Part shown: positions 37,750-46,171 of the stretch, piece by piece
Layout of the letters: the number at the start of each line of letters is the position of its first letter
How positions within the stretch are numbered: the first letter of the stretch is position 1
From: Stentor roeselii
Lineage: Eukaryota; Ciliophora; Heterotrichea; Heterotrichida; Stentoridae
DNA: 64,000 nt
Reading direction: 5' to 3'
NCBI GenBank assembly: GCA_006503475.1
Contig: RSEH01000078.1
Span: 105,042 to 169,041 of the forward strand
Program-made: the position numbers and the translations under genes
Notes under the pieces: generated by a model
Database searches by the model: none
The model's input: only the letters and a program-made list of their open reading frames with translations
What the model was told of the DNA's origin: nothing

Positions 37750-38643
37750 TTACTCTCTATTCTTATCAATATTCCCTTCAGACTCCAGCAGTGATTGTTC
37801 AGCATCCTTACCACCACAAAAGAAATGTCTAATAGCAATTCGATTTTTTTCATTCAAAGCATAAAAAATCGCATTGAAAAACCCATTCAACGATGCCAAG
37901 ACTCCAGCGACATCAATGAAACCATGAGGCACAAAGACTCCAAAGTGCATAATTTGTCTAATGCAAATAATAGGCCCAAAAGAAAAAATAAGTAAAATTG
38001 GATACCATCTAATCCGCTTATAGACTTTCTGATACTCTTCCTGATGACTAATCAAAAATTTTTTCTGAAGCTGAAAAATGATCCTGATGTAAAAATAACT
38101 CATTAAAATCGTGCTTATAAGGTAAACCCCGTGAACTAGAAGAGTGGCTTCAATATAGTTCTTGTCAATATCAAGGTAACACCAAAGTTTTGACTGGGAA
38201 ATCGAGTCTTTCCAGATGAAAACACCTGAACTCACCAGTGGAAGAGCAAAGCAAATAGAAAGAAACTTGTAGATATTCGAATCCACCACGAATGACTCGT
38301 TTATGAAAATCTGGTAAAGCGAAAAGGAAATCAAAAGGACTATCAGAGAACTGGCTGTAAATGAATAGACCATCAGCAGGCCTTGGATTTTGCAGATCAA
38401 ATCGGAGGAAGAGTCTGATTTAAACCATGTGAGAAAATAGGCTAGGTGACTATTACAACTTGAATATAAGAAGTTTGCTACTCCTAAGGCAAATATTAAT
38501 CTGTTGTAAGCGGATTGCAAGCGGGTGATGATTAAAAAACAACTCATGATGAACAGAGATCCTATCAAACTGATTAGAGATGAAAGCTCTATCATCAGTT
38601 TCTCAGTTTCTATGTTTTCTTGGTAGTTTATAATGTTTCCCAT
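37750..38643 (-). CDS. Seven-transmembrane receptor-like protein 1 of 4
   Basis: After removing a 15-nt intron (38442-38456) the product is 292 residues with seven hydrophobic helices. TM1 is SLISLIGSLFIMSCFLIITR. TM3 opens with the conserved Cys of ICKIQGLLMVYS. The second extracellular loop carries its partner Cys in LWCYLD. TM7 is VLASLNGFFNAIFYALNEKN. The TM7 pattern and the LWC loop resemble class E (cAMP receptor-like) GPCRs of protists. The cytosolic tail is short with a Cys (FFCGGKD) that could be palmitoylated. It is the most divergent of the four tandem copies. Ligand unknown. Confidence 0.82.
   Translation of the reverse strand: MGNIINYQENIETEKLMIELSSLISLIGSLFIMSCFLIITRLQSAYNRLIFALGVANFLYSSCNSHLAYFLTWFKSDSSSDLICKIQGLLMVYSFTASSLIVLLISFSLYQIFINESFVVDSNIYKFLSICFALPLVSSGVFIWKDSISQSKLWCYLDIDKNYIEATLLVHGVYLISTILMSYFYIRIIFQLQKKFLISHQEEYQKVYKRIRWYPILLIFSFGPIICIRQIMHFGVFVPHGFIDVAGVLASLNGFFNAIFYALNEKNRIAIRHFFCGGKDAEQSLLESEGNIDKNRE
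38442..38456 (-). other. 15-nt intron in receptor 1
   Basis: The minus-strand sequence is GTAATAGTCACCTAG, phase 1. It has no in-frame stop, so it hides in the ORF as five extra residues. Removal gives the TM2 text LYSSSYFLTW. Confidence 0.85.
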
Positions 38644-38863
38644 TTTATTAGTTTGATTTATTTGGGCTAAGCGTGGTTTGAACGGGTATGTAATTGGTTT
38701 ATATTAGTTTTATTTATTCAATATCGTTAGTTAAGGAGGGATTCGCATGAGAAATTATGTTTATAAGAATCAGCTCATGAAGCATTTAGATTTAATATAA
38801 TTTAAGCATGGTTGATATGAACTAAAACATACAGTTTATTTTTAAACAAATATTCATCCTATT

Positions 38864-39712
38864 CTAAGACTTAGATATCAACGACATTTCAATCTCGTGA
38901 CTTTCAGTTCCACAAATTCTACTCATAAAAATCTTCCTACTTCCTTCATTAAATCCATAAAAGATGCCATTGAGCATTCCATTCAAAGTCGATAAAATTG
39001 CTCCGATGATAATTCCCTCTTTAACAATATCTTCATTCTCATAATACTTGAAAGCCATACTAAAAATGATGATAGGAAAGAACATGATCTGAAGAAAAGG
39101 AAGATATCTAAACTTTATCAGTTTGCTTTTAGAGTTACTTTCCCTTGAAATGAATTTGACTATAAGACAGTTCAAGTAGAAAGTGATGATTAAACAAAGA
39201 AAATAAACCCCATTCACCAAAAAAAGAGTCTCGATAAAGGCATTTTTATGACTCATGAAGCACCAGGGACCTTCTTTTACGATTTGGTTGATTTTCACGA
39301 AGTATATTGAAATTGAAGCTGAAATTACTAATGATAAACACAGTCCAATCCAAATATTCATTACTATTGTTAGATCTTTATTCATAAGTTGGCAGTAAAA
39401 AAAGGATGTAAAGTGTAAAATCAGAAAGGTACTCATGTTGAATGAAAATTGCTTTATCACTCCTTGAATATTGCACCAGAATGATGATTCACTTTCATCT
39501 GATGCTAGAGTTATAAGAAATGCTGATTATTTCTTACATAGAGAAAACAGGAAATCACTTATGCCTAAAGCGATGATTAGGGTGCAGTATTTATAGTTTT
39601 CCTTGTTGAATTGGATTACATATATTGTCACCATTACGAAACAGAATAAGCAACTGAGAAAAGAAACTAATATCAAAATGATTTCTAGAATATTAAGGTT
39701 TTGTAGTTCCAT
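38864..39712 (-). CDS. Seven-transmembrane receptor-like protein 2 of 4
   Basis: Two separate ORFs (39712-39527 and 39460-38864) are one gene. Removing a 15-nt intron (39523-39537) joins ISDFLFSL to SFLITLASDESESSFWCNIQ and gives 277 residues. It has seven helices, the TM3 cysteine (WCNIQGVIKQFSFNMSTF) and the loop cysteine (KEGPWCFMSHKNAF). TM7 is LSTLNGMLNGIFYGFNEG. It closely resembles copies 3 and 4. It has a short acidic tail (TESHEIEMSLISKS). A class E-like GPCR of unknown ligand is the best reading. Confidence 0.85.
39523..39537 (-). other. 15-nt intron in receptor 2
   Basis: The minus-strand sequence is GTAAGAAATAATCAG, phase 1, with an in-frame TAA if retained. It is at the same site as the introns in the other three copies. 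Confidence 0.93.
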
Positions 39713-39883
39713 TTATATAAATTAGCAAGAAAATTGGGTTTATTAGAATAAATGTTTCAAAGTTAACAATACTGACTGCCTTTTTTATTATTTAATTTTT
39801 GATATAATATATCAAGAATTTAGGAAATTCAATACAAAACAAGCAGATAAATAATCACTTTGAAAAAAATAATCTAACTAACT

Positions 39884-40696
39884 CTAAGCTATTAAAAGTG
39901 GCTCTTTATTTTTGTGTTTTTTAACTGTAATAATATTCAGTCCATAGAAAATCCCATTCAGCACCCCATTCAAATTCGAGATTATCGCTCCTATAGTGAT
40001 ACCTTGAATCAAATCAGACTGATTCATAAACTTCAATGCCGTGCTATAGAAAATCAAAGGGAAATAAAGTATCTGAAGGAATGGAAGGTATCTGAAATTC
40101 ATCAATTTCTTATTTCTCTGATTTTTGGCTAAGAAATAGTTGACAATCTTGAAATTAAGTACGATTGTTATCACCAAACAAATAAAATAAAGTCCATTCA
40201 CCAAAATCAAAGTCTCATAGAAAGCATCTGTTTGACTCATAAAGCACCAGAAACCTTCTTTCCCTATCTTTTCGGCTGTAATAAAATATAATGAAACAGA
40301 GCCTGACACCAAAAAAGACCCCAGAAGTCCGAGCACAATTTTTTCTATAGATAGATGTGAGACTTGCTGTATCAGAGAGTAGAAAAATAAAGAAAACAAA
40401 AGTATCACAAAAGAACCCATGCTGAATGAAAACTGCTGCATTACACCTTGGATTGTGCAAAAGGTTGAATTTTGAACTGTCTCTGAAAATAAACTTAACA
40501 GAAATGCTGATTATATCTTACAGAATGAGAAAAAAAAATCTGAGATTCCAAGGGTGATGATTAAGATATAAACTTCTCTGTATGTTTGTTCATAGTTCAA
40601 AATGTAAGTCAAAATCATAATGAAACTGAAGATGCAACTTAAGGATGCAGTAGCAATCAGTCCTATTTCGAGAAAATTCAATTCTGCCCAGACCAT
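39884..40696 (-). CDS. Seven-transmembrane receptor-like protein 3 of 4
   Basis: Two ORFs (40696-40511 and 40441-39884) are joined by removing a 15-nt intron (40507-40521), giving 265 residues: ISDFFFSF then SFLLSLFSETVQNSTFCTIQ. It has seven helices, the TM3 cysteine (FCTIQGVMQQFSF) and the loop cysteine (KEGFWCFMSQTDAFYE). TM7 is ISNLNGVLNGIFYGLN. The tail is very short and basic (KKHKNKEPLLIA). It is most like copies 2 and 4, which points to recent tandem duplication. Ligand and coupling are unknown. Confidence 0.85.
40507..40521 (-). other. 15-nt intron in receptor 3
   Basis: The minus-strand sequence is GTAAGATATAATCAG, phase 1, containing an in-frame TAA if retained. Confidence 0.93.
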
Positions 40697-40767
40697 TTAT
40701 AAGTCTATTACTGAGAAAATTCAAATCGAAGAACTTAATAATTAGGACTAGATTATTATTTATTGAT

Positions 40768-41598
40768 TCATTTCCTAAAAGGTATGCCTAGATCATTAGA
40801 ACAAAAAATTTTTGAATTATTTTTCGGAGTAATTCCATAGAAAAAACCATTTAAAACTCCGTTCAAAGATGCTAAAATAGCTCCGAAATTCAACCCATAT
40901 TGAACAAACTCATTGTTTTCTAGAATATGGTCTATAATACTAAATATTATAATAGGCAAGAACATAAGTTGAAATAAAGGAAAATACTTAGACCTCATTT
41001 CAGTGCAATATTTTCTTTCTCTACAATTAACGATAGCCAAGTAGTTTAAAACTACAGTAATGATCATACACACTAAAAAAACTCCATTAATCAATAAGAG
41101 AACTTCATAAAAAGCAGTTTTGCAATCCATGAAGCACCAAAATCCTTCTTTTGCAATTTTCCCGCTATAAAGAAAATAAACTGAAACAGATGACGAAAAA
41201 ATCAAAGAAGAAAATAATTGCGCCAAATAAGTTAAAACACTTTTTGTCTCAGTTTGAAAACATTCTTTATTTTTCTTAGAAATCGAATAAAGAATAGTAA
41301 TCAGATGCAAAACGATAAAAGTGCTCATCATAAAAGAGAACTGACGAATTACTGCTTGTACATTGCAGAGAGTTGAGCCAGTCTTGTTATCTGACAAGAG
41401 ACTAATGATTAAAGCTAAATTTTTCTTACAAAAAGAGTAAAAAAAATCAGAAATTCCAAGAAGAATAACAAGAACCTCGTATTTGTAATTGTTTAAATCA
41501 AAATAAAGGAAATATCTGATAATCATTCCGAAGCAAAATAAGCAACTCAAGCATGATGCAACAAACAAAAAATATTCAAAGAACCTCAATTCCTCCAT
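40768..41598 (-). CDS. Seven-transmembrane receptor-like protein 4 of 4
   Basis: The ORF is uninterrupted, but it contains the same phase-1 15-nt intron (41415-41429) without an in-frame stop. The true product is therefore 271 residues and lacks five residues (CKKNLA becomes S-L at the junction). It has seven helices, the TM3 cysteine in LCNVQAVIRQFSF, the loop cysteine in KEGFWCFMDCKTAFYE, and TM7 ILASLNGVLNGFFYGI. The family is class E-like GPCR by pattern. The frame ends TGA ATC AAT AAA TAA, so a Trp reading would add only WINK. The SYO1/HEATR3 gene ends 42 bp upstream of its start. Confidence 0.85.
   Translation of the reverse strand: MEELRFFEYFLFVASCLSCLFCFGMIIRYFLYFDLNNYKYEVLVILLGISDFFYSFCKKNLALIISLLSDNKTGSTLCNVQAVIRQFSFMMSTFIVLHLITILYSISKKNKECFQTETKSVLTYLAQLFSSLIFSSSVSVYFLYSGKIAKEGFWCFMDCKTAFYEVLLLINGVFLVCMIITVVLNYLAIVNCRERKYCTEMRSKYFPLFQLMFLPIIIFSIIDHILENNEFVQYGLNFGAILASLNGVLNGFFYGITPKNNSKIFCSNDLGIPFRK
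41415..41429 (-). other. 15-nt intron in receptor 4, hidden in frame
   Basis: The minus-strand sequence is GTAAGAAAAATTTAG. It is recognised only by comparison with copies 2 and 3, where the intron carries a stop. Confidence 0.85.
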
Positions 41599-41640: not shown

Positions 41641-43311
41641 CTACCATAAAATATGCTGAGCTTTATACTTGATAAACTCAACCAAGTTCTCCAAGGCCTC
41701 CTGAGCATGCTCTCGCACATCAGCATCTTTACAATTCCTTATCTTAACTTTGAACTCTTCAACCCCAGCGGCCATCATCGGCATTACAGCAGTTTTTTGC
41801 AATACAAAGTCAAACCTTTCATCATTAAAAGCATCAAAAAAGACATTCAAAGCTTCAGTATTCACCTCAAGTCTAACATCCTGACAACATTTAACAAGAG
41901 CAGCTAAAACCATTTCAACCACTTCTAAATTTGTTTCATCTTTCACAAAACAACTTAAAATTCCTAACAAATTTTCAGTCATTTCTTCTAAATCACGAGA
42001 AATTCCTGTTAAAACCTGAGAAATTAACTTCGTGGTTTGAATTCCTTGAAAATTTCTAACATTTTCAGGGTATTTCTTGCAGATTGCACAGAGGTTTTTG
42101 CTGAGAATCGTTAAAAGTTCAAAGAAATCTTGTTGAAATTCGGTTTCTTCATCAGAAAACTCGAGACTTCTATCAAAGTGCTCGAGAAGCATAGTCCAGA
42201 CCTCAGCCAAGAACCCTTCAAGTGCAGAGGTGTTAAGAATTAAATTTTGAATACAAGCGAAAGCAGCATTTTGCAAGTTAAGCATGACAATCATGAGGTC
42301 AGGGTAGTTAAAAATCTTTAAAACAATATCTTTTCCGACACCATTCGCAGCTTTTGCAATAAATTTCACATGTTCGACATTTAACCTCTGAATAACTTGA
42401 GGCTCTTCCCCTTCTTCAGACGTGAGTAAATTAGTCAACATTTCTAAAGCATTCTGCTGAGCTCGGGCTTCAGTTGTCCAAAAGTGTTCCTGAGCTTTAA
42501 AGTCATTTTCATCGAGCTTATTACTGACATTCTCCAAGAACTCAGAATGAATATCAAGGTTAAGCAATTCTAAGATAACCGGAAGGCAGTATTTAAAAAT
42601 CTCATTAAAATTGCTAGTTTCTTCCAAAGCAGAAAAAACCAAACCGACAAGTCCAGTTTTACATTCAGAGTCAAGAGCAGGAAGTCTATTTAAAAAATCT
42701 TGACTGTGAAGTGCAAGCAACCGACTACTGAAGTTTTTATCATCTTCAACAAAAAGTTGCAGCAAGTCAACAGCTGCCAAAGCGACACTTTTCGACCCAG
42801 TAAGAATAGCTTGAATGCTCTGATCCACAACATTCGACGATTTCAAATTTTTCAAAATGCCATCATCTTGAGCAGCTAAAGCACTAAGAAAATAAAAAGA
42901 AGTCGAAACCAAGCTCTGATAAAAAAGCTGTTCTTGTTTTCCACTGTAAAGATTTTCATTCCCGACATGACTTGCCAAAATGGGGAGGACAAGTGTGACA
43001 GCTCCAAGTCCAAGAAGGACCTGTGAATGTTCCGAGGCCAAAGTGATGGCAGCGTGAAGAGCAGCTGTTTGGACTGCAGGCTCTGCGTCAGTGATTCGTT
43101 CAATGACCAGCTTGACGACACTTTCAGGGTCTTCGAAGTGGTTGAAGTTCGCCACTGCAATGCAGGCCAGTTCTCTGATATGCGGGTCGGAGTTTCGAAG
43201 CTGAGTGAAAATTACGCTGGAAGGCAGGTCGTCCTTTAACTGCTCTGACTGCTCAGCCTTGATCGGGTCAAAACGATGCGACCTGTCTCGGGAAGGACGC
43301 GATTTAACCAT
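41641..43311 (-). CDS. HEATR3/SYO1-like HEAT-repeat protein
   Basis: The 556-residue protein starts MVKSRPSRDRSHRFDP, a short basic N-terminus like the MGKS-R start of HEATR3. It continues with armadillo/HEAT repeats: IFTQLRNSDPHIRELACIAV, LVIERITDAEPAVQTAALHA, and further helical pairs to the C-terminal DADVREHAQEALENLVEFIK. SYO1/HEATR3 escorts ribosomal proteins uL18 and uL5 into the nucleus for 5S RNP assembly. The acidic loop of the family is present as the DDLP and EEGEEPQ segments. Other armadillo proteins are possible. Its ATG is 7 nt after the OGDH stop on the same strand. Confidence 0.75.
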   Translation of the reverse strand: MVKSRPSRDRSHRFDPIKAEQSEQLKDDLPSSVIFTQLRNSDPHIRELACIAVANFNHFEDPESVVKLVIERITDAEPAVQTAALHAAITLASEHSQVLLGLGAVTLVLPILASHVGNENLYSGKQEQLFYQSLVSTSFYFLSALAAQDDGILKNLKSSNVVDQSIQAILTGSKSVALAAVDLLQLFVEDDKNFSSRLLALHSQDFLNRLPALDSECKTGLVGLVFSALEETSNFNEIFKYCLPVILELLNLDIHSEFLENVSNKLDENDFKAQEHFWTTEARAQQNALEMLTNLLTSEEGEEPQVIQRLNVEHVKFIAKAANGVGKDIVLKIFNYPDLMIVMLNLQNAAFACIQNLILNTSALEGFLAEVWTMLLEHFDRSLEFSDEETEFQQDFFELLTILSKNLCAICKKYPENVRNFQGIQTTKLISQVLTGISRDLEEMTENLLGILSCFVKDETNLEVVEMVLAALVKCCQDVRLEVNTEALNVFFDAFNDERFDFVLQKTAVMPMMAAGVEEFKVKIRNCKDADVREHAQEALENLVEFIKYKAQHILW

Positions 43312-43318
43312 TTATCTA

Positions 43319-46171
43319 CTAAGAAAGCGCCTTGTCTAATAAAGATGCTAGTTGCTTCGTGTGATGTGAGGCAAAACCTGTCGCTGCTGCTGCGTGAGGA
43401 CCGCGTGATGCAACTGTGACCTTTTCGAAACCCGAGTCTTTTAAAGCCGTGTCGATTCGAGGCTTTACGTAGGTCCAGCAGCCCATGTTTAAAGGCTCTT
43501 CTTGCACCCATTGGAATTGAGCGTTTTGGTACTTCTTGCCTAAGGCTTTTACCTTGTCGAAAGGGAAGGGGACTATCTGCTCTACACGACAAATGGCCAC
43601 ATCATTCACCCCTCGTTTCCTCCTTTCATCAACTAAATCATAATAAACCTGTCCAGAGCACAGCAAAACTTTTCTAATATTCGAAGGATCGAGCAAGTCC
43701 TTCGAGACCTCATCATAAACTCTCGCAACACGTTCAGCTGAAAACTCTTCAATATTCGAAACAGCTTCTCGATGTCTAAGTAGTCTTTTCGGTGAAAAGA
43801 CAAACATAGGTTTTCTGAATTCTCTTCTAATTTGTCTTCTCAACATATGAAAGTAATTTGCAGGGTTAGTCGGCATAACGACCTGAATATTATTTCTAAA
43901 GATCTGTTGACGATTAATGACAGCATTCAGGTCCTGTTCATACGGATCATCCGCTGACAACTGCAAGATTCTTTCAATCCGGCCTGATGAGTGTTCCGCG
44001 CCTTGTCCATCATATCCATGAGGCAAGAGAAGGACGATGCCTGACTGTTGGCCCCACTTGGCCTCTCCCGAAGTGATGAACTGGTCGATGGTGATCTGCG
44101 CGCCGTTCACAAAGTCGCCGAACTGGGCTTCCCAGAGGATGAGGGCGTTGGGGTTGGTGAGTGAATAACCGTATTCGAAGCCGAGGACTCCGTATTCACT
44201 TAAATGAGAATTCACTGCTGTGAACTTCGCCTGACTTCCACTCAAGTGACTTAAAGGCGTGTAGGACTTGGAGTCGACTTTCTGGTCCTTTATCACTGCG
44301 TGTCTCTGGGAAAAGGTACCTCGTTGAACGTCTTCTCCACTGATCCTCACGTGAATGTCTTCTAAGAGAAGAGAACCCCAAGCGAGTGACTCGGCGCAGG
44401 CCCAGTCGATGCCTACTCCAGATTCAATCATGTTATACCGGTTTTTGTAGATTTTCGCTACTCCTGGATGTGCGTTGATGTCAGATGGAATCGAGTTTAA
44501 CTTCAGTCCCATTTCCTTTAACTTCGTTTGGTCTACTCCTGTGAAATAAGGGTCACTTTGTGGAAGTTTCATCAAAGTCCATTCACTTCTGCCCAGACTC
44601 ACATTTTTCAACTGTCCTGAACTGACATTTTTCGCTGCATTAAAAGAACTTTCAAATTCATTTACAATTTCTTTAACCATGTCATTCGCGGAGTCTTCAG
44701 TAATGACTCCTTCGGCAATCAGCTTTTTCTGATACTTGATAAAAGCAGGGACTTGTTTTTCGATTAACTGATACATTTTGGGGTTGGTGAAAAGAGGCTC
44801 GTCTAGTTCATTGTGGCCGTATCTTCTATACCCGATGATATCGACGAAGACACTTTTATTGAATTCTTTTCGCCAGTCCGCAGCGAGTCTTGAAACAAAA
44901 TCGACTTCTTCAGGGCAGTCTGCATTGACGTGGAAAATGGGACTTTGAATGCTGGTCGCTATCGACGTTGGGAACAAACTGGACCTGGCTTCGCGCGGAG
45001 TCGTGGTGAAGCCGATGTTATTATTAGCGACAAGGTGAATCACTCCGCCTGTTGAGTACTCGTAAAGGTCTTCCATTTGAATTGTCTCGTAAACGACTCC
45101 TTGCCCGGCCAAGGCAGCGTCTCCATGAATTAAAATCGCCATGACTCGATTTGGGTCATTTCTGTAAAATTGCGTCGCGTGAACTTTGCCGACTGTCACA
45201 GGGTCAACTGCTTCTAAGTGAGAAGGGTTGGCGAGTAGGTCTATTGTTACGGTTTTTCCGTTTATTACTCTTTGGATCTTATGGCCTAAGTGGTATTTCA
45301 CGTCACCTTCTTCCAGTAGTCGAGCGTTGGTCCCCATGAACATTCCACACATCTCTGTTAAAGAACTCTGACAAACATTTGCTAAAACATTAAGTCGTCC
45401 TCTATGAGGCATTCCAATGATAAAAGTGTCAACTCCATGTTTCGACGCCTGCTCAATAACAGCTTCAATAGCAATAATCAAACTTTCCAGTCCTTCAAGT
45501 CCAAAACGTTTATGAGTTGTAAACTTCTTCAAGAAAAAATTCTCTAAAAGATGAGACCTTGCGATTTTCTTTAAAAGTTCAAGTTTTTCCTCATTCGAAT
45601 GTTGCAAGCCGGACTCCTGCTCGATTCTATCTTTCAAGAAATTAGTTTCATCCCTAAAAGGAATATGCATGAATTCATATCCGATCTTTCCACAGTAAGT
45701 CGACTTAAGTCTCTGTACAAGTTCCTTCAATTTCCATTTTCCAGCCTTAGGCCTGTCAACATCGACGAAGCCTTTCAGCATACCGACGCTGATGTCGTAT
45801 TCTTTGTTCATGTCTTCTTCATTGAACTTATAGTTGTCGATTTTTAAACTTCCAGGAATTCGGATGGGAACAGCGTGTTCGTCAAGAGCCGAGTGCAGGC
45901 GAAGAGGGTCGACATCTGCTAAGACGTACCCGTTGATTTGGAAGGCTCGATGCAAGACAGCGACTTTTAAAGTATCTCTGCCTTCCTTGGCCATGTCGAT
46001 TTCGCCGATGAAAGCTTCTCCTCCGAGAGTGGAGAAGACTGAGTTCCAAGAAGAATGGACTGAAACTGGGTCAGTTTTCCAGTTTTCGTACATTTTTTGC
46101 ATGTAGTAAGATGTTCGTCGTATCGGCACTTGGCACATTGAACTTGATAAACGCTTCAAGGCTCTTAACAT
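43319..46171 (-). CDS. OGDH: 2-oxoglutarate dehydrogenase E1, mitochondrial
   Basis: The 950-residue protein has a mitochondrial presequence (MLRALKRLSSSMCQVPIRRT) and the family's early motif NWKTDPVSVHSSWNSVF. Thiamine diphosphate-domain motifs are IIGMPHRGRLNVLANV, GDAALAGQG and NNNIGFTT. Further motifs are YRRYGHNELDEP and, in the pyrimidine domain, FSQRHAVI, FGDFVNGAQITIDQF and LLLPHGYDGQGAEHSS. The length is that of typical E1o. The enzyme decarboxylates 2-oxoglutarate in the TCA cycle, showing the organism respires. Two TAG codons end the gene, and HEATR3 starts 7 nt later. It is divergent from the 182-residue gene by 25 bp. Confidence 0.97.
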   Translation of the reverse strand: MLRALKRLSSSMCQVPIRRTSYYMQKMYENWKTDPVSVHSSWNSVFSTLGGEAFIGEIDMAKEGRDTLKVAVLHRAFQINGYVLADVDPLRLHSALDEHAVPIRIPGSLKIDNYKFNEEDMNKEYDISVGMLKGFVDVDRPKAGKWKLKELVQRLKSTYCGKIGYEFMHIPFRDETNFLKDRIEQESGLQHSNEEKLELLKKIARSHLLENFFLKKFTTHKRFGLEGLESLIIAIEAVIEQASKHGVDTFIIGMPHRGRLNVLANVCQSSLTEMCGMFMGTNARLLEEGDVKYHLGHKIQRVINGKTVTIDLLANPSHLEAVDPVTVGKVHATQFYRNDPNRVMAILIHGDAALAGQGVVYETIQMEDLYEYSTGGVIHLVANNNIGFTTTPREARSSLFPTSIATSIQSPIFHVNADCPEEVDFVSRLAADWRKEFNKSVFVDIIGYRRYGHNELDEPLFTNPKMYQLIEKQVPAFIKYQKKLIAEGVITEDSANDMVKEIVNEFESSFNAAKNVSSGQLKNVSLGRSEWTLMKLPQSDPYFTGVDQTKLKEMGLKLNSIPSDINAHPGVAKIYKNRYNMIESGVGIDWACAESLAWGSLLLEDIHVRISGEDVQRGTFSQRHAVIKDQKVDSKSYTPLSHLSGSQAKFTAVNSHLSEYGVLGFEYGYSLTNPNALILWEAQFGDFVNGAQITIDQFITSGEAKWGQQSGIVLLLPHGYDGQGAEHSSGRIERILQLSADDPYEQDLNAVINRQQIFRNNIQVVMPTNPANYFHMLRRQIRREFRKPMFVFSPKRLLRHREAVSNIEEFSAERVARVYDEVSKDLLDPSNIRKVLLCSGQVYYDLVDERRKRGVNDVAICRVEQIVPFPFDKVKALGKKYQNAQFQWVQEEPLNMGCWTYVKPRIDTALKDSGFEKVTVASRGPHAAAATGFASHHTKQLASLLDKALS

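Follow-up and report, generated by a model that had tools for sequence, protein, structure and literature searches.

Two features of heterotrich genomes are already in print, the many GPCRs and the introns of 15 nt. Luo et al. reported 123 GPCRs for Stentor coeruleus, the maximum within Heterotrichea and with family E included, and described the heterotrich GPCR expansion as proceeding through duplication (Luo et al., 2023; PMC9960496). Of the 8806 introns annotated in S. coeruleus, 92.81% have a length of 15 nt, and the introns overall have an A+T content of 75.63%; the branch-point A of Stentor 15-nt introns lies mostly at position 10 (PMC9505925). Multi-exon genes make up 20% in S. coeruleus and 18% in Blepharisma stoltei (PMC10946202). 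Among the literature matches listed, none by its title or abstract opening concerned a conserved intron site in ciliate or Stentor GPCRs.

The window analysed here is a stretch of 64,000 nucleotides (G000:C503:105042-169041) of an assembly of 44.39 Mb in 522 contigs. Four homologous 7TM receptor genes occupy positions 37750-41598 on its minus strand, arranged head to tail in the order c4, c3, c2, c1 and separated by about 70, 170 and 220 bases. The original prediction had placed an array of four 7TM receptors here, and its coordinates and homology check out. Deletion of one GTA-N10-AG 15-mer per gene gives a single open frame in each of c1-c4:

37750..38643, minus strand: receptor copy 1 (c1), 292 aa after splicing, 7TM; Dicty_CAR 26.2 bits against a cut-off of 21
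38442..38456, minus strand: predicted intron of c1, 15 nt, phase 1, A at position 10, without in-frame stop
38864..39712, minus strand: receptor copy 2 (c2), 277 aa after splicing
39523..39537, minus strand: predicted intron of c2, 15 nt, phase 1, in-frame TAA at intron positions 9-11
39884..40696, minus strand: receptor copy 3 (c3), 265 aa after splicing
40507..40521, minus strand: predicted intron of c3, 15 nt, phase 1, in-frame TAA at intron positions 9-11
40768..41598, minus strand: receptor copy 4 (c4), 271 aa after splicing
41415..41429, minus strand: predicted intron of c4, 15 nt, phase 1, A at position 10, without in-frame stop

The standard code fits, since TGG occurs inside the long frames and TAA, TAG or TGA end them. 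Two further frames, with starts at 46171 and 43311, precede c4 on the minus strand. No Rfam match (at gathering scores) and no ARAGORN match was obtained within the window. A tally of intron lengths across the window gave no clear signal: 15 nt was counted three times and 16 nt not at all, while other lengths (e.g. 52) also reached three.

All four copies have the cysteines of TM3 and loop 2 (C75 and C146 in c2) and the TM7 motif LNGxxNxxFY without variation, in agreement with the cysteines and the similar TM7 that had been predicted. Seven helices had also been claimed for every copy. By plain Kyte-Doolittle hydropathy (19 residues, cut-off 1.2), seven peaks were found in c1, c3 and c4, but only six in c2, where TM3 is recognisable by alignment yet stays under the cut-off. 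Pairwise identity among the four copies is 27-48%. Copies 2-4 had been described as closer to one another than to copy 1, and they indeed form a clade (100/100) joined to c1 with 100/96; c2 is 47% identical to c3 and 44% to c4, versus 29% to c1. A profile made from the 45 other family members read gave 150.2 bits for c1, 81.0 for c2, 64.9 for c4 and 62.7 for c3, against a best score of -0.3 bits for shuffled copies (50 per copy, 200 in total). A lack of homology among the spliced proteins, which would have spoken against the array, was therefore not observed.

With respect to receptor class, the Dicty_CAR match of c1 (PF05462, 26.2 bits) covers residues 8-177, and its 7tm_1 score, likewise 26.2 bits, is under the cut-off of 30.5. 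Searched singly, c2, c3 and c4 had no Dicty_CAR match up to E 10 and no notable Pfam match. The comparison with class E profiles suggested alongside the original prediction thus succeeded for c1, whereas c2-c4 are linked to class E through c1 and the wider family. Across the whole genome, Dicty_CAR gave 43 matches (38 above cut-off, best 59.3 bits), 7tm_2 14 matches (13 above, best 47.7 bits) and 7tm_1 12 matches (six above, best 36.1 bits). The passes of the latter two fall largely in Dicty_CAR-positive genes, and at C396:18744 the profiles 7tm_2 (47.7 bits) and Dicty_CAR (47.1 bits) score alike. Class E is therefore the best label for the family, though a non-exclusive one, since members pass the 7tm_1 and 7tm_2 cut-offs too. 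The predicted structure of c1 was poor (pLDDT 55.9, pTM 0.45); the frames submitted for c1 and c4 contained the five intron-coded residues. The top PDB structure matches of this low-confidence c1 model were GPCRs, led by an adhesion receptor (E 4.2e-5; TM normalised to query length 0.51). The PDB sequence search returned weak GPCR matches only, at best E 0.29 for c1 alone and E 0.0038 for the profile A1. We infer a sensory role at the cell surface for these proteins; the chemoreceptor function suggested in the original prediction would be one candidate.

The array belongs to a much larger family, which in the union of genome searches comprised about 85 places on 53 contigs of the 44.4-Mb genome. 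Queries with single proteins returned 33 matches for c1, eight for c2 and 81 for the relative L086, all of these counts being lower bounds. Tandem clusters are common in the family, as 37 of the 85 places sit in 13 clusters (gaps of at most 5 kb). The window array is one of three four-gene clusters, alongside a single cluster of five. The local expansion that had been proposed is supported as tandem duplication. Left out of the union were three places of another family (C273:169590, C273:166450 and C511:131566), two weak matches within long cyclase frames (C247:23350 and C72:43712) and C273:153464 (E 0.003); a few weak places with E up to 0.0135 were retained. Gene models were built at 52 places. 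L050, L052 and L056 were dropped for the low family-profile scores of their best models (10.3, -5.8 and 0.8 bits, respectively), and the 49 kept (of 85 places) are the scope of the intron counts.

The models admitted up to two introns per gene, of the form GTA...AG and 15 or 16 nt in length; an A at position 10 was no search condition. A supported intron was found in 9 of the 49 members read: c1-c4, L062 and L063 (adjacent on C522), L081 (C324), L086 (C7) and L079 (C504). This frequency of 18% is ordinary, being near the proportions of multi-exon genes reported for the two heterotrichs (PMC10946202). All nine introns are 15 nt long, in phase 1 and at alignment column 78, so that the very short phase-1 intron claimed for one TM2 site holds in 4/4 window copies. 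An A stands at position 10 in 9/9, compared with 3/12 of the other GTA-N10-AG 15-mers within coding sequence of the 49 members; every intron thus has the length, the GT...AG ends and the A10 of heterotrich 15-nt introns. Together with the standard code, these introns mark the genome as that of a heterotrich-like ciliate. Splicing in silico raised the family-profile score in all nine genes, by 6.6-9.9 bits (8.4-9.8 in the window copies). The A+T content of the nine introns is 53-80%. The remaining 40 members lack both the intron and any additional residues at this position; in L089, which is among them, a loop a few residues downstream is longer. Near or at the C-terminus, two more candidates were set aside for simpler models, one of 16 nt in L062 (+1.5 bits, without A at position 11) and one of 15 nt in L023 (+0.5 bits, with A10), so a second intron site may exist in the family.

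The original prediction had proposed that the intron could be older than the duplications, and this is supported. Judged from the alignment, the intron apparently predates the four-gene array as well, because five further genes, spread over four contigs other than that of the array, share its codon position. For its deeper history, a careful tree of 46 rows was used, unrooted and with the long branches L011, L051 and L053 left out. On this tree the intron distribution needs five changes, four of them forced by starred branches; the quick tree of all 49 members also needs five, with three forced. A single clade of bearers was rejected (lnL 134.9 worse). L081, which has the intron, and L012, which does not, are sisters (100/100), and the junction in L012 is without remnant. 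As the bearers are scattered and not one clade, the intron is most likely older than the radiation of the family and was lost several times afterwards. A single ancestral intron followed by several exact losses is the most economical history for the tree, and we infer loss over repeated gain on that ground.

The best surviving alternative is that introns were gained independently and repeatedly at a favoured TM2 site. The scattered bearers, the four to five changes and the rejection of a single clade are all compatible with it, and since the tree is unrooted, gains alone could fit. However, the nine introns are identical in column, phase and length, whereas their flanking exon bases vary and contain no common proto-splice motif. 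Repeated gain is also less simple than one old intron followed by clean losses, and we consider it improbable.

A second alternative concerns c1 and c4, whose frames are open across the 15 nt. When the phase-1 intron is retained, its positions 9-11 are read as one codon containing A10. This triplet is TAA or TAG in 7/9 introns, and CAC in c1 and AAT in c4. Consequently c2 and c3 look broken and c1 and c4 intact, because the presumed branch-point triplet is a stop in the former pair only; the in-frame TAA of c2 and c3 had been noted originally. The open frames of c1 and c4 could be taken to mean that their 15-mers code for five residues of TM2, or that an alternative isoform keeps them. Yet the 15-mers of these two copies start with GTAA, end with AG, have A10 and occupy the exact intron site of the seven stop-bearing homologues; their retention costs 8.4 bits in c1 and 9.8 bits in c4 against the profile, and 40 intronless relatives are without an insert at this site. 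This alternative is therefore somewhat less probable again than repeated gain. The stop/no-stop difference among the copies arises as a side effect of the presumed branch-point sequence. It is also a pitfall for gene prediction, of the kind originally described: where the presumed phase-1 branch-point triplet is TAA or TAG it is read as a stop, which splits c2 and c3 (both TAA), and c1 and c4 would gain five false residues. That the four genes are decaying pseudogenes is hardly credible: although TAA interrupts c2 and c3 if unspliced, each copy is full-length open after removal of the 15-mer, and long-decayed copies would not retain the cysteines and the TM7 motif at 27-48% identity.

The array is thus very probably a tandem-duplicated branch of class-E-like 7TM receptors that kept an old 15-nt spliceosomal intron, cleanly lost in other lineages. 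Under this explanation, tandem duplication within a large cAMP-receptor-like 7TM family would have produced the window array. Each gene would have one 15-nt spliceosomal intron after the first base of a common TM2 codon, with the branch-point adenosine presumably at intron position 10, and the intron would be excised before translation. It would have been present before the radiation and lost cleanly in several lineages, and the window branch would have retained it. Such a history would provide a clean, testable example of how a 15-nt intron fares as its gene family evolves, with site, phase, length and branch-point position fixed and the losses apparently exact.

The possible signalling partners of the receptors were also considered. 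None of the 29 G-alpha matches in the assembly was above cut-off. Six of them were read, those on C74, C392 and C507 and three of the highest-scoring (C87, C126 and C18), and their motifs suggest four Arf-like proteins, one that is Rab-like and one further GTPase. Ciliates are reported to have lost G-alpha. RGS was marginal, with four genome matches, one of them above cut-off only with its neighbours in frame, and the genome search for G-gamma, run without a positive control, gave no match. The cyclase domain had 77 matches, 68 of which form pairs in 34 open frames of 1,879-2,290 codons. These 34 paired nucleotide-cyclase frames are a candidate effector set of the receptors. A broader proposal would be that the roughly 85 class-E-like receptors signal without canonical G-alpha or heterotrimeric G proteins, and that the 15-nt intron persisted at one codon despite the divergence of the family, which around the shared site is down to roughly 22-34% protein identity. 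We hold this combined proposal as tentative and rather unlikely. A firm claim of G-protein absence is disfavoured by the partial G-protein clones from Stentor (Marino, 2001, as cited in PMC3226668). A large receptor set with no G-alpha detected in the assembly poses a concrete question about the route by which ciliate 7TM receptors signal.

Compared with the cAMP receptors of class E (Dicty_CAR, PF05462), the family is alike in the above-cut-off match of c1, the short termini, the TM3 and loop-2 cysteines and a WC pair. It is different in that c2-c4 are unmatched singly and some members pass 7tm_1 and 7tm_2; the likeness is one of protein features, and a cAMP ligand would be conjecture. The family resembles the repertoire of Luo et al. 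in being a large heterotrich GPCR set with family E and duplication. However, the main text of that study has the word 'intron' once, in a reference title, and intron positions appear to lie outside its coverage (Luo et al., 2023). The family of about 85 places, the family-wide history of its intron and the explanation of the stops by the branch point are new. The nine introns agree in length and A10 with the 15-nt introns of S. coeruleus, and their A+T content spans values below and above the overall 75.63%. The figures given for S. coeruleus are genome-wide (PMC9505925), whereas here one site was traced through one gene family.

A further place, possibly a tenth gene with the 15-nt intron at the TM2 site, was seen elsewhere in the genome assembly (G000) as a weak match to the receptor family (E 0.0135), with one TAG in frame:

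G000:C518:17060-17860, candidate intron-bearing receptor gene

Candidate introns close to the stop codon were found in L062 (an intron bearer on C522; 16 nt) and L023 (on C34; 15 nt), with gains in family-profile score of only 1.5 and 0.5 bits, respectively. These C-terminal introns may be genuine and were left out of the accepted set.

Three gene places dropped from the family (L050, L052 and L056) encode 7TM-like proteins:

G000:C273:166450-170090 and C511:131566-132045, 7TM-like proteins

They form a set apart from the receptor family, touching the Dicty_CAR profile but hardly matching the family's own. It is possible that they carry 15-nt introns at sites other than the family's.

Two frames adjoin the receptor array upstream, and by eye we take them to resemble the following:

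window 43319-46171, strand -, 950 codons, presumably like 2-oxoglutarate dehydrogenase E1
window 41641-43311, strand -, 556 codons, presumably like a repeat protein

Domain matches across G000 also revealed a large set of double-cyclase frames, with two nucleotide-cyclase domains apiece in 34 open frames (1,879-2,290 codons), for example:

C55:59567-61582, example locus of the double-cyclase set
C72:33224-48187, example locus of the double-cyclase set

These frames are, we assume, reminiscent of the ciliate ATPase-cyclase fusions.
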